From Candidatus Eisenbacteria bacterium (GTDB taxonomy: Bacteria > Eisenbacteria > RBG-16-71-46 > JAFGJU01), in assembly GCA_026388185.1 (NCBI GenBank), contig JAPLKG010000011.1, positions 1-64,000 of the forward strand: a stretch of DNA of 64,000 nucleotides. Reading direction: 5' to 3'. How positions within the stretch are numbered: the first letter of the stretch is position 1; the number at the start of each line of letters is the position of its first letter. A program made the position numbers and the translations under genes. Under the pieces are notes generated by a model. That model saw only the letters and a program-made list of their open reading frames with translations. It had not been told where the DNA came from and did not search any database. Of this stretch, positions 43,344 through 52,184 are shown piece by piece.

Positions 43344-44945
43344 ATGAAAAAGTGCGGGCTTGTAATACGGGTAAGCACCCAAGAACAAGCGATGAACAAA
43401 GAGGGGTCTCTCACTAATCAGCCCCAAATGTTGAGAGACCATCTGCAGCATATGACGAGGATCGGCGGCGAGCCGTGGGTCGAAGTGAAGCTATACATAC
43501 TGAGAGGAATTTCTGGCAAGGACTCCCTTCGGAGCAAGGAGTTCGCACCGATTCTAGAGGACATCAAGACTGGGACGATCAACACGCTCTGCTGCACAGC
43601 CCTGGACAGGGTTAGCCGCTCGGTGAAGGATTTCCTCAACTTCTTCGAGTTCCTGAACAAGCACAATGTCGAGTTTGTTTGCCTGAAGCAGAGCTACGAC
43701 ACGACATCATCGCAGGGCAGACTCCTAACGAACATCGCAATTAGTCTTGCTCAGTTCGAGCGGGAGCAAACCTCGGAGCGAAACAGAGACACGAGCCTAG
43801 CCAGGGCGGAACGTGGCCTATGGAACGGTGGCTACCTGCTTGGCTACGACCTCGACCCTGACAAGAAGGTCTATCTCATCCCTAACCCCGATGAGAGAGT
43901 GGCAGTCAACTTTGCTTTCGATAAATGCCTGGAACTGGGTTCTGCGGTCGGGGCCATGAAGGCATTGAACAGCCAGGGCTTCAGGACAAAGGAATACACG
44001 TCGCGCAGGGGAAAGCGCCACTCGGCCAAGAAGTTCAGCTACATGTCCACGTTCCAGCTGCTCACGAACCGGGCCTACATCGGCAAGAAGGAAATCAACA
44101 AGAAGAAACGAGTGCTCGACCAGGAGAAGCTCCCCGAGAGTCAGCAATATCGGACCGTGGATGCTCGCTGGGAGGGCATCGTTGATGGGGAGAAGTTCTG
44201 GAAGGTCCAGGAACTGCTCAAGAAGAACAGCAAATCGAGGCACAACAGCGCGAAGGCCGTTAAGCACAACTACATTGTGAACGGGGTGCTCTTTTGTGCT
44301 AAGTGCGGGAGCGAGATGCAGGGCCGACCGGGGAATGGCGCCAGAGGCGTCAAGTATTACTACTATGTTTGCAAGAGCAAGGAGTGCAGGTTCGCGATGC
44401 CAGCCGGCGAGGTTGAGCAGGTGGTTCTAGAGAGAATCAAAGAGCTCTCCGGCCGCAGCGACATCCTAGAGGGCATTGTGAAACGCACCAACGAGAGGAT
44501 GAAGACAGAACTACCTCAGCTCCGGGAGCGGAAAGATACGCTTGAGAGGGAGCTAGTCAATATCAAGGCTACCGCAACTGGCATCATCAGAGATCGTGAG
44601 AAGATTGGAGGTGAGAAGGGCGAGGTTTTCGTACGGGAGACACTTGAAGAGTTAGGCGATAGACGAAAGGGGGTTGAGACAGGGATTCAAGAAGTGGAGC
44701 AGGCTATCGGGGAGATAGAGCGGGAGTCAGTGAGTCATCGGGACGTGATGCACGCCCTAAGCGAGTTCGGCGAAGTCTTTGGGCAGATACCGCCGTATCA
44801 GCAGAAAGACCTCGTGAAACTCGTGGTGAACCGTGTGGAATTGGCGTCGGACTCGATGAAGATGGCCCTGTACGGCCGTGTGGCCGCCGTAGGGCCGGTC
44901 AGTGGGGGAGTACGCACTGGGATACAAGAGTGGCTCCGCGGGTAG
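43344..44945 (+). CDS. Large serine recombinase (integrase/transposase type)
   Basis: A 533-aa site-specific recombinase. The resolvase domain starts GLVIRVSTQEQAM with catalytic Ser in RVS. It continues with TALDRVSRSVKDF and SLAQFEREQTSERNRD. The recombinase domain (~160-280) is followed by a zinc-ribbon segment CAKCGSEMQGR...CKSKECRF and a long coiled coil (~385-465) typical of large serine integrases. Its last codons run into a tRNA 3'-end-like sequence, as expected when the integrase gene sits beside attP or an att junction. This is the best candidate for the enzyme that brought in the accessory region. Confidence 0.88.
   Translation: MKKCGLVIRVSTQEQAMNKEGSLTNQPQMLRDHLQHMTRIGGEPWVEVKLYILRGISGKDSLRSKEFAPILEDIKTGTINTLCCTALDRVSRSVKDFLNFFEFLNKHNVEFVCLKQSYDTTSSQGRLLTNIAISLAQFEREQTSERNRDTSLARAERGLWNGGYLLGYDLDPDKKVYLIPNPDERVAVNFAFDKCLELGSAVGAMKALNSQGFRTKEYTSRRGKRHSAKKFSYMSTFQLLTNRAYIGKKEINKKKRVLDQEKLPESQQYRTVDARWEGIVDGEKFWKVQELLKKNSKSRHNSAKAVKHNYIVNGVLFCAKCGSEMQGRPGNGARGVKYYYYVCKSKECRFAMPAGEVEQVVLERIKELSGRSDILEGIVKRTNERMKTELPQLRERKDTLERELVNIKATATGIIRDREKIGGEKGEVFVRETLEELGDRRKGVETGIQEVEQAIGEIERESVSHRDVMHALSEFGEVFGQIPPYQQKDLVKLVVNRVELASDSMKMALYGRVAAVGPVSGGVRTGIQEWLRG
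44927..44942. repeat. 16-bp direct repeat AGAGTGGCTCCGCGGG, possible right attachment site
   Basis: It is identical to 11516-11531. It overlaps the final codons and stop of the serine recombinase and the acceptor end of the tRNA fragment next to it. Together with the left copy it would bound an element of about 33 kb. Confidence 0.55.
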
Positions 44946-47919: not shown

Positions 47920-49143
47920 ATGAAGGCTTGCCGCTCGTCGACGGTCGTGGTGTCGACTATTGTGATTGCAGGATGTCTCGCTCTGGTCGGTTGCTCGCTC
48001 GGCCTTCTCCTGGCCGGATGCGGAGGGGAGCCTACCAGCCCGCGCGCAAAAGCCCTCGTTTACGTGAACTCAATACCCGCAAGGGCCTTGATACATCTTG
48101 ATGCGGTGAGCACCGGGAAGCTCACTCCCGACAGTGTTCTGGTTCGCGAGGGAGATCACACGCTCACCCTGACGCTCGACGGCTACAGGGATTCCACCGT
48201 TTCTTTTTCGACGGCCCGCGAGGACACCGTCAGTCTTGACGTCAGACTCACGGCAATCGAAGGCACTTTCACTTGGAGTCGCGTGACGGGAATCGACGCC
48301 GCGGTCTACGGCATTGACTTCGCCACCCTGACCTACGGTTGTGGGGTCGGGGAGGCCGGAAACGTTTTCAGGACTTCCAGCGCCGGTGCGAGCTGGGTGC
48401 AACTGAACGCCGGGACGAGCGAGGACTTGTTGTCCGTGAGCTTCGCTTCGCCCTCGGTCGGATGGGCCTGCGGGACAAACGGGGTCATTCTGAAGACCAC
48501 GGACTACGGCGACACGTGGACTTCCTGGCCCAGCACGACCAGCCAGGACCTTCACGACGTGTGCTTTGTCAACGCCAGCAACGGTTGGGCGGTGGGAGAT
48601 TCCGGCAAGATTCTACGCAGCACGGACGGTGGTCTTTCGTGGAGCCCTCGAACCAGCAATACCACGAAGAACCTTTCGGCCGTCTACTTCCTTGACATCA
48701 CGCACGGGTGGGTGGTCGGCGGCAATCTGGCGGGCGAGGGGCAAGTGATCCTTAGAAGCACAAACGGCGGCGTCACGTGGCAGTCGAGCTCCACGGTTTC
48801 CACCTCTTGCCTCAGAGATGTGTTCTTCTTCACGTCCGAGATTGGCCTCTGTGTCGGCGACGACGGTCTTGTACTTCGCTCCACCAACGGCGGCATTTCC
48901 TGGGAGTCGATGGGCAGCGTGGGGTCTCTTTCGCTACGCGCCTTGACCGCATGGAGCAGCACCGATTACTGGGCCGTCGGCTACGAATATGGTGCGGTCG
49001 GTTACGTGTTCAGAAGCGCCGATGGCGGTCTCACGTGGTATCTCTTTGAAGAAACCCCGCAAGGCCTCCTGTGCGTCGACGCAATCCAGGGTTCGCCGAA
49101 CGGCTGGGCAGGAAGTCTGTCCGGGCTCTGGGGGTACGAGTAG
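47920..49143 (+). CDS. Lipoprotein with PEGA domain and YCF48-like propeller
   Basis: A 407-aa protein. The signal is of lipoprotein type (LGLLLAGCGGEP). A PEGA-like beta domain follows (~45-105: VYVNSIPARALIHLDAVSTG). Seven or so repeats of the YCF48/HCF136 type come after it (TTDYGDTWTSWPSTTSQDL, STDGGLSWSPR, STNGGVTWQSS), with F..xxxGWAVGDxGKIL features. GGGAGGGAGA fixes ATG 47920; the frame is open to 47881. It is likely surface- or periplasm-exposed, with an unknown role. Confidence 0.72.
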   Translation: MKACRSSTVVVSTIVIAGCLALVGCSLGLLLAGCGGEPTSPRAKALVYVNSIPARALIHLDAVSTGKLTPDSVLVREGDHTLTLTLDGYRDSTVSFSTAREDTVSLDVRLTAIEGTFTWSRVTGIDAAVYGIDFATLTYGCGVGEAGNVFRTSSAGASWVQLNAGTSEDLLSVSFASPSVGWACGTNGVILKTTDYGDTWTSWPSTTSQDLHDVCFVNASNGWAVGDSGKILRSTDGGLSWSPRTSNTTKNLSAVYFLDITHGWVVGGNLAGEGQVILRSTNGGVTWQSSSTVSTSCLRDVFFFTSEIGLCVGDDGLVLRSTNGGISWESMGSVGSLSLRALTAWSSTDYWAVGYEYGAVGYVFRSADGGLTWYLFEETPQGLLCVDAIQGSPNGWAGSLSGLWGYE

Positions 49144-49145
49144 CA

Positions 49146-50414
49146 TTGGGAGTTCGTGTACGAATCAGTCTTGGCAGTGTACTGCGGGTCAGAAGCTTCC
49201 TGGCTCTGAGCATCGGGCAGACAGTCTCCCAGTTCGGTGACAGGCTCAACCACATGGCCCTCATCGCGCTTGTCTCGGAGATGATGCCCGGCTCCACGTT
49301 CAAGTTCTCAAAGCTCATGATCTTTGTCACGCTCCCCGGCCTCGTGTTCGGTCCCATATCCGGCGTTTTCATCGACAGATGGAACAAGAAGAAAGTTCTC
49401 TTCTTCTGCGACCTGATGAGAGGGTCGTTGGTTCTCCTCATACCCTTCATTCCCTCATCCAACGTCATCTTCGCCGTCGTGTTTCTTGTCTTCTCTGCGG
49501 GCCTGTTCTACTCGCCGGCAAAGAACGCTCTCGTTCCCAGCGTGATAGCGAAGAGAAAGATACTGATGGCGGGTTCGGTCACAACCTTCACGGCGAGAGC
49601 TTCGACGGTGATCGGCGCCGTTGCGGGCGGAATGATAGTGGGCTACTTCGGCTGGAGAACAAGCTTCTATCTCGATTCCATTTCCTACGTTTTCTCGGCG
49701 GCGATGTTGCTTCTCGTGACTTATCATCCTGCGGCGCGCCCGGAAGAGGAAATCGTGTCCTCTATTCCGACTCCCCGGTTGGGTGGATTCCAGGTTTTTT
49801 TGAGGGAGTCCAAGAAGCTTTTCTTGGAAGTGTGGGAGGGAATAAAGTTTGCTTTCTCACACAAGCCCACCGTGTTTGTTTTCTCGAGCGCAATCGCGAT
49901 GGCTCTTGCGGGAGGCAGCCTCTACGTTCTCGTTATTGTCTTGGTGAAGGAAGTGTTGGGTAAGGGAATAGAGGGGCTCGGCACATTGATCGGCTCGCTC
50001 GGCGTGGGCATGATACTTGGCTCGGTGATAACCGGTAGATTCGGGCACGTCACCACACAGAGACGCATTGTCCTTTGGGGACTCGCAGTGTTTGCCGCTC
50101 TGATCGTGGTTTTCGCCAGAGTGAAGAGCCTCGTGTGGATGAACACACTGGCGTGTATTTCCGGTGTGGCGCTGTCACCGGTGCTGATTTGTCTCGACAC
50201 GTTGCTTCAGAAGTCCGTGCCGCAGCAATTTCGTGGAAGAGTTTTCAGCGCGCGTGACGCGATTCTCAACGGAGGGTTTCTTATTTCGAGCGTCCTCATC
50301 GGTCTCCTGGCAGAGAATCTGGACAAGGCGAAAACGTTGACCTTTGTCGGCGTTGCGCTTCTGGCGGTCGTGATTGTCGTAAGGCAAACGTCGAGAGGGC
50401 TGACAGAGGAGTAG
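49146..50414 (+). CDS. MFS-type transporter
   Basis: A 422-aa membrane protein with ~12 hydrophobic segments, beginning SFLALSIGQTVSQFGDRLNH. The major-facilitator loop 2-3 motif is represented by GPISGVFIDRWNKKKVLFFCD, with the second half at HVTTQRRIVLWG. It resembles the enterobactin/macrolide-type MFS_3 permeases. The TTG at 49146 directly after the previous stop is the likely start; the frame extends upstream inside the lipoprotein gene without support. The substrate is not predictable. Confidence 0.75.
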   Translation: MGVRVRISLGSVLRVRSFLALSIGQTVSQFGDRLNHMALIALVSEMMPGSTFKFSKLMIFVTLPGLVFGPISGVFIDRWNKKKVLFFCDLMRGSLVLLIPFIPSSNVIFAVVFLVFSAGLFYSPAKNALVPSVIAKRKILMAGSVTTFTARASTVIGAVAGGMIVGYFGWRTSFYLDSISYVFSAAMLLLVTYHPAARPEEEIVSSIPTPRLGGFQVFLRESKKLFLEVWEGIKFAFSHKPTVFVFSSAIAMALAGGSLYVLVIVLVKEVLGKGIEGLGTLIGSLGVGMILGSVITGRFGHVTTQRRIVLWGLAVFAALIVVFARVKSLVWMNTLACISGVALSPVLICLDTLLQKSVPQQFRGRVFSARDAILNGGFLISSVLIGLLAENLDKAKTLTFVGVALLAVVIVVRQTSRGLTEE

Positions 50415-50449
50415 CGGGGTATCTAAACAAGACGAAAGGAGTGGTCTGA

Positions 50450-51712
50450 ATGAGCCGTAACGTCAAGATTGTCGCCTGGGTGCTGGTGGCGGTGATCGTC
50501 GCAATCTTCGTGGTCGCAATTCCCAAGTTTCCGAAGATGGCTGAGAAAAGGGAGAAGGAAGCCCTCAGAACCGCGAGGGAGGAGGTCGAACCGGGCAAGA
50601 GAATTGTGAATCTCGTGTCGTTTCTCAAGGCGCATCCGAAAGGCAAGTACAGGGGCTACGCTCACGTCTACGTGTTCGACGCGTATTTGAGCGACCTTAA
50701 AGACACGACGAAGGCCCTCTCCTACGCAAGAGAAATCCTTGCGTCCGGCGAAACACTGGAAGGAAAGGGACCCATCTATCCTTCGCTGTTTATGTTCTGG
50801 CGAGAGGTCGGCAAGGCGGACAGCGCGCTCGCAATCGCGAAGGAAGCGCTGGCGTTCAATCTCAAGGACAGCTCCATTTACAGCGACATGGGATATGCTC
50901 TGGCCGAGGCGGGCGAACAGCTGGAGTTGGCGATAGAGCTCGGCAAGAAGGCAGTTGGTCTCGCGAAGGACGAGGCTACCAAGGCCTACGCTTACGAAGG
51001 TCTCGGATGGGCCTATATGAAGGCGGGCAGGATTGCCGAAGCCACAGACGCACTCAAGAACGCGGTCAAATCGGCAGGCGAAGACGTGGATGAGTCCACG
51101 GTGCAGCATCTGGGCGAAGCGTATCTCGCGGCCGGTAAGGTAGAGGATGCAATAGCAACATATCTGGATTTGATGGCGAGAGGACAGTACGACGACGTTC
51201 GAGACAAGCTTGACAGCCTCTACACCGCGACGAGCCGTTCCACCGCCGACCTGGACAGGGACATCAAATCACGGAGAGAGCAGAGACTGAGCCCTGCTCC
51301 TCAATTCGCGCTCCGTGACACGCAGGGCCTGATCAAGACCCTTTCGGGCTACAAGGGCAAGGTTGTTCTGCTCAATTTCATGCAGCCTACTTGAGGACCT
51401 TGCGTCGCGGAGTTTCCGCGACTCGAGGAGCTCGCCAAAGAGTTCCCGTCCGCTCAATTCGCCGTCGTCTCTGTTGACGTCTCCAATCAGAAGAAAAGAA
51501 CTATCAAGGTAGTGAGCGATACCGGCGTGAGTTTCCCGGTGCTTCTTGACAACAGGTCCGTTGGAAGGAAGCTCTACAAAGTGAGAGGGACACCCACGAC
51601 GCTGATAATCAACGGCGACGGCTTTGTGGCCTTTAGGCATGTGGGCTACTCCGACGGCATGGAGGAGATTCTCAAGAAGGAGATTCAAGGCTTGTTGGCG
51701 GGTCCAGCGTAA
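50450..51712 (+). CDS. Membrane-anchored TPR-thioredoxin (TlpA-like) protein, probable selenoprotein with in-frame UGA
   Basis: The full frame is 420 codons with TGA at 51392-51394 (codon 315). An N-terminal membrane helix (VAWVLVAVIVAIFVVAI) is followed by TPR-type helices (~80-270), then a TlpA/thioredoxin fold: VVLLNFMQPT-TGA-GPCVAEFPRL, FAVVSVDV, and the cis-Pro loop VRGTPTTLIIN. The TGA occupies exactly the first Cys of the CGPC active site. A perfect 8-bp hairpin lies just downstream (51404-51422) with a G as first loop base, 17 nt after the UGA. I infer read-through as selenocysteine. The alternative is a nonsense mutation, but the frame and motifs continue intact for another 106 codons. 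Confidence 0.78.
51404..51422 (+). promoter_or_regulatory. Bacterial SECIS-like hairpin after the UGA
   Basis: GTCGCGGA and TCCGCGAC pair perfectly around the loop GTT. The first loop base G is 17 nt after the UGA, within the spacing known for bacterial SECIS elements. The hairpin is within the coding sequence (VAEFPR), as expected for bacteria. Confidence 0.7.
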
Positions 51713-51967
51713 GTCGGCCACAAGATGCCTTCGAGGCTCGGCCTTGGCTTGCGACCCGGCGAGGCCACTGGAGGGGTTTGCCGTAGTAAGGCAGACCCCT
51801 CTCTCGTTCTCGGGTCATGCAACGGGCGGGCCGTCGCGCGTCCGGTGGGCCGTCGCGAGGCGCGAGCCCTGCGAACCTCCCCGTACCCCGGTGCGCGCTA
51901 CCTTGTTGCTCGACTGTCGGTTAGGCCGTCTTCCTTGCCTCTCGGCACCGTATTGCTTTTCGGATTC

Positions 51968-51993
51968 GATGTGTTATACTGATGTGTTATACT
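51968..51993 (+). promoter_or_regulatory. Tandem duplicated -10 region before tRNA-Leu
   Basis: GATGTGTTATACT occurs twice in direct succession (51968-51980 and 51981-51993). Each copy contains TATACT. TTGCTT about 16 nt before the first copy could be the -35. Only one copy can be well placed relative to it. Confidence 0.5.
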
Positions 51994-52014
51994 TAAGTAA
52001 GAGGAAGCACGCCC

Positions 52015-52099
52015 GCGAGAGTGGCGGAACTGGCAGACGCGCTGGACTTAGGATCCAGTGAGGAGACTCATGGGGGTTCAAATCCCCCCTCTCGCACCA
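52015..52099 (+). tRNA. tRNA-Leu (anticodon UAG)
   Basis: The acceptor GCGAGAG pairs with CTCTCGC, followed by A and encoded CCA (52097-52099). The anticodon arm is CTGGA-CTTAGGA-TCCAG with anticodon TAG. A long variable arm and T-arm GGGGG-TTCAAAT-CCCCC complete the class II tRNA. Confidence 0.95.
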
Positions 52100-52184
52100 A
52101 CTCGCGAGTTGCGTCCTTGGGACTTCGGTTCCTTGAGGCCGGGATTTCCCGAGGTTGTATTGCGTTACTCAAGAAGGAGGTCTG

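Follow-up and report, generated by a model that had tools for sequence, protein, structure and literature searches.

Selenoproteins with a UxxC motif have been catalogued as several types. Table 1 of PMC13188914 lists a Thiol-disulfide isomerase-like type (cd02966), a Redoxin family type (PF08534) and a Prx-like thiol:disulfide oxidoreductase (PF00578), and some of these types have been known since the Sargasso Sea study (PMC1088965). NCBIfam also holds a model for a ResA-like WAxxUGC motif-containing protein (NF041054), whose ResA-like domain carries Sec in the active site.

We analyzed a stretch of 64,000 nucleotides from a Candidatus Eisenbacteria bacterium (hereafter the window), in which the original prediction had placed a TlpA-like selenoprotein. 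In the set of papers searched, none paired Eisenbacteria with selenoprotein or selenocysteine. The present results support the TlpA-like reading and very strongly favor a single gene, whose product would be a thiol:disulfide reductase anchored in the membrane and facing outward, composed of a TPR solenoid and a TlpA/ResA-type domain, with Sec as the first catalytic residue (UGPC). Judged from the sequence, an apparently broken gene almost certainly encodes one intact redox protein whose UGA is read as selenocysteine.

Like the UxxC types listed in PMC13188914, the predicted protein has a PF00578/PF08534 thioredoxin-fold domain, Sec as the first residue of UxxC and a bacterial SECIS hairpin; unlike the types described there, it carries a TPR solenoid and a membrane anchor N-terminal to this domain. 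It shares a ResA-like domain and an active-site Sec with NF041054, but the motif is UGPC and not UGC, and the score was 31 bits, far under the cut-off of 300. The whole-protein score for ResA (NF002854) was 75.3 bits against a cut-off of 170; the window protein is ResA-like, not ResA. Because no NCBIfam model reached its cut-off with this protein, and because a term search for TPR or tetratricopeptide gave no occurrence in the catalogue text of PMC13188914, it seems to represent a TPR-fused subfamily, so far unlisted, within a known kind of selenoprotein, by which a TPR-fused form would be added to the UxxC selenoproteins.

The predicted selenoprotein coding sequence was located at 50450-51712 on the + strand, as are the other parts of this locus described below. 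This 420-codon frame (420 aa) starts with ATG at 50450, runs over 314 sense codons to the TGA at 51392-51394 and, after 105 more sense codons, closes with TAA at 51710-51712; full-length homologues have TGA at the same codon. The TGA is codon 315 and the sole internal stop of the frame. It had been predicted to occupy the place of the first Cys of CGPC, and this was borne out: the protein context is NFMQPT-U-GPCVAEFPRL, with putative Sec315 as the N-terminal residue of the UGPC motif. The thioredoxin fold also continues beyond the UGA as proposed, through 105 sense codons and a stop, with the resolving Cys of UxxC (Cys318, 51401-51403), which is invariant in the alignment, and a cis-Pro loop GTPTT whose Pro382 (51593-51595) is likewise invariant. 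Automated calling was expected to break the gene in two, and the plain ORF list indeed gives 50450-51394 (314 aa) and 51512-51712 (66 aa); reading the UGA as Sec would restore the complete gene.

A Shine-Dalgarno-like AAAGGAG (50435-50441) lies 8 nt ahead of the ATG, and the motif also precedes the orthologues L018 and L019. The gene for an MFS transporter (49071-50414) ends 35 nt upstream of the coding sequence. This neighbor is kept in both same-family genomes, upstream in L018 and L019 with 71-74% identity by tblastn, and the trigger factor gene downstream is kept in L019. When the window was scanned for further in-frame TGA codons with redox-type neighbors and a SECIS-like stem, one other match was obtained, at 44278. 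This second candidate was rejected, as the 533-aa ORF at that place is read in another frame.

The protein is divided into three parts. An N-terminal membrane anchor is predicted at residues 8-25 (50471-50524) from the sequence, the alignment and a modelled helix. It is followed by a TPR-type helical solenoid (residues 28-279, 50531-51286) and a TlpA/ResA-type thioredoxin-fold domain (residues 282-416, 51293-51697), the latter assigned from Pfam, profile and fold matches. The anchor and the solenoid, about 250 residues, had been overlooked in the original prediction. Pfam matches over residues 282-405 were PF00578 (AhpC-TSA; 3e-18, 66.2 bits, cut-off 26) and PF08534 (Redoxin; 3e-15, 56.9 bits, cut-off 26.6). 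TPR models of Pfam matched the window protein weakly, all below cut-off, and several orthologues match TPR models. The AlphaFold2 model (pLDDT 92.5, pTM 0.84) is a single confident fold across the UGA, with a helix at 3-23, a helical-repeat solenoid at 28-279 (pLDDT mostly 90 or more) and a thioredoxin fold at 287-416.

The closest solved folds were the DsbE-like protein 3gl3 of Chlorobium tepidum and ResA (1st9/1su9), with TMt of about 0.9, and a profile search also matched 3gl3 and ResA 1st9. These structures (1st9, 1su9 and 3gl3) share the same fold over about 136 residues at about 31-36% identity, but they have Cys for Sec and are without the TPR part. Both family features of TlpA/ResA-like proteins, the UxxC active site (U315-G-P-C318) and the invariant Pro382, are present. 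The protein would be extracytoplasmic and membrane-bound, and the N termini of the orthologues L020-L022, which are lipobox-like in place of a plain anchor, fit this location.

The position of the UGA in this architecture bears on whether the gene might yield two products by design, i.e., a free TPR protein when the UGA acts as a stop and the full protein on read-through under some conditions, as in a selenium-dependent switch. UGA recoding competes with RF2 termination, a recoding of 30-40% in vivo is reported in PMC4513850, and only a short part of the thioredoxin domain precedes the UGA. Against this, the UGA lies inside that domain, past the core strand 305-311 of the model, so that a truncated form would carry a broken piece of the fold, and nothing in this analysis points to a function of such a form. 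We consider a two-product design very unlikely and favor one full-length selenoprotein.

Homologues were compared at the codon for residue 315. When the read-through protein was searched in 59 genomes, five relatives gave the best matches, with 51, 50, 34, 31 and 31% identity; each of them has exactly one internal stop, always TGA. In all six (the window gene and the five relatives of its class), the TGA is at the same codon and in frame; stops elsewhere in the frame, which were named as an argument against a selenoprotein, were not seen in these best relatives. An alignment search of 385 genomes yielded three more homologues outside the class (L159-L161) with TGA at this codon. Homologues with Cys at the Sec position, which the original prediction suggested looking for, were found as well: five (L137, L053 and L162-L164) have the same overall architecture, with CxxC at that position. 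These Cys forms differ from the window gene in their Cys codon and have no hairpin of equal strength at the SECIS position. In total, the codon is TGA in nine homologues and Cys in five others. A contig-wide scan added little beyond the Cys form L053: L052 is apparently identical with the gene L021 (of G023, whose class is shared with the window), and the remaining matches were mostly to the thioredoxin domain alone. In the Sec forms L160 and L161 (about 540-550 aa overall), the helical/TPR region at the N terminus is far longer; the length of this region thus varies, while the unit of UGA and hairpin stays fixed.

Outside the class, selA was present in all three TGA genomes and in none of the three Cys genomes (L162-L164); this comparison was a prediction, checked once the codons were known. 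Downstream of the UGA, pN was 0.22-0.28 and pS 0.64-0.66 among three same-family orthologues, and second codon positions were the most conserved. This part of the gene is under purifying selection.

These comparisons bear directly on the explanation of the TGA as a nonsense mutation or base-call error in a Cys gene. Only one base parts TGA from TGC or TGT, and the genome is a 20-contig assembly. Such an explanation is refuted by the fact that nine genomes from different genera, including three outside the class, share the TGA at this codon, and the selection acting downstream as well as the covarying hairpin described below also speak against it. A pseudogene or sequencing error is hardly credible, and a conserved selenocysteine codon is preferred.

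A hairpin was found directly downstream of the UGA. The original prediction described a perfect 8-bp stem with loop GTT, 17 nt after the UGA. The stem (51404-51411 with 51415-51422) and the loop (GUU in the RNA, 51412-51414) are as described; the 17 nt is the distance from the UGA to the apical loop, whereas only 9 nt separate the UGA from the first base of the stem. This putative apical hairpin of a bacterial SECIS element (51404-51422) is lengthened by a lower 5-bp stem (51398-51428), in which 51398-51402 pairs with 51424-51428, and an analogous lower stem is also found in L020-L022. The fold energy was -27 kcal/mol (z -3.9), and none of 200 shuffles was as low. According to the bSECIS constraints on stem, loop, G, spacing and MFE given in PMC13188914, the upper stem has 4-16 bp, the apical loop has 3-9 nt with G in the first two positions, the UGA-to-loop distance is 16-37 nt and the MFE is <= -7.5. 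With 8 bp, a 3-nt loop beginning with G, 17 nt and -27 kcal/mol, the window hairpin lies within all four published constraints. Rfam at E <= 10 over 50400-52100 gave no SECIS family, only a tRNA at 52015 and sub-threshold noise.

The hairpin on its own is weak evidence, because a stem of at least 8 bp in SECIS geometry occurs at 2.6% (1 in 38) of 9,986 ordinary codons of the window. The hairpin is found at constant spacing after the TGA in the homologues. Among nine homologues, columns 14-19 and 25-30 form six pairs with 98% of cells paired, and three of the six pairs have changed on both sides, i.e., are compensated. None of 500 shuffles reached the covariation score, and the covariation was destroyed when the partner strand was slid by 1-3 columns. 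The combination of a conserved TGA and compensated stem changes in nine homologues is well beyond chance. Covariation with nine related sequences is supportive and not formal proof, and we regard the conservation at the codon level as the stronger evidence. One outer stem pair (columns 13/31) fails in L020-L022. The stem of L159 has just 5 bp (MFE -8.7), and the loop of L159-L161 is the 5-nt AGUUG with G in second position, still inside the bSECIS model.

The machinery for selenocysteine was searched in the own genome (2.6 Mb in 20 contigs, 98% complete). We detected selA (568 bits, cut-off 268), selB (365 bits, cut-off 242), selD (344 bits, cut-off 125) and tRNA-Sec with anticodon TCA (69.5 bits, gathering 47). 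The original prediction named absence of selB or selC as an argument against the selenoprotein; all four of selA, selB, selC and selD are present. The selD gene (L048:1481-2532, about 334927-335978 of contig C11) has its 3' end 9 nt before the tRNA-Sec gene. It is itself a candidate selenoprotein gene, with an in-frame TGA at L048:1531 in the context MTRKEKIRLTTRVACSG-U-ASKIGPGDLEK, which brings the number of candidate selenoprotein genes in the genome to at least two.

An in-frame UGA followed by a conserved protein would also be seen if UGA were reassigned throughout the genome (to Trp, Gly or Cys) or were generally read through. In the window, TGA ends 18 of the 32 long non-overlapping ORFs (one of the 18 is the upstream part of this gene), among them those of what we take to be Lon-, ClpX-, trigger-factor- and enoyl-CoA-hydratase-like proteins. 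TGA is an ordinary stop in the window and is therefore not reassigned genome-wide. In addition, the tRNA(UCA) belongs to the Sec type, and the homologues carry Cys at this position, not Trp or Gly. We give almost no credence to reassignment, and retain selenocysteine as the reading of codon 315.

Across the class, selA was over the cut-off in 40 of 47 genomes and selB in 37 of 47, which supports the use of selenocysteine in a little-studied lineage. Only six of the 47 genomes have the gene in its TGA form; other selenoproteins therefore presumably maintain the trait. The gene is dispensable for many relatives, since it is missing from most of the class.

In a tree of the thioredoxin domain, all nine TGA forms fell into a single clade (97/94), and nested inside it was a lone Cys form, L053, as sister to L161 (99/98). 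The hairpin of L053 (L053:5001-5832) is decayed, with 2 bp left (MFE -4.4), and the genome of L053 keeps selB. The simplest reading would be one gain of Sec in the subfamily followed by one loss, within the limits that the root and long branches of the tree set on any gain/loss reading. On balance, we lean toward an undescribed TPR-TlpA (UxxC) selenoprotein subfamily of single origin, spread over several groups of bacteria and not confined to one class, in which L053 would be a natural Sec-to-Cys reversion, with selB kept and the SECIS hairpin decayed. The Sec/Cys pairs and the putative reversion offer a natural test of the circumstances under which selenocysteine is retained or given up.

We propose the following mechanism. 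SelA and SelD would make Sec on tRNA-Sec(UCA), and SelB would deliver it at the UGA, guided by the hairpin with its loop 17 nt downstream. Sec315 may then attack a substrate disulfide, and Cys318 would resolve the mixed selenide-sulfide. The oxidized protein, which would act as a reductase outside the cytoplasm, would be re-reduced, most likely by a transmembrane donor of the CcdA/DsbD type. For the TPR part, a role in recruiting or positioning clients, or in binding a partner, is probable. At other loci the own genome encodes two DsbD_TM proteins, which are candidate electron donors, linked to the TPR-TlpA gene by plausibility alone. One of the two is the product of a CcdA-like gene on contig C6 of the own genome (L165:1489-2202), which is directly followed by a gene for a Cys-containing ResA-like protein (L165:2227-2757) with a lipoprotein-like N terminus.
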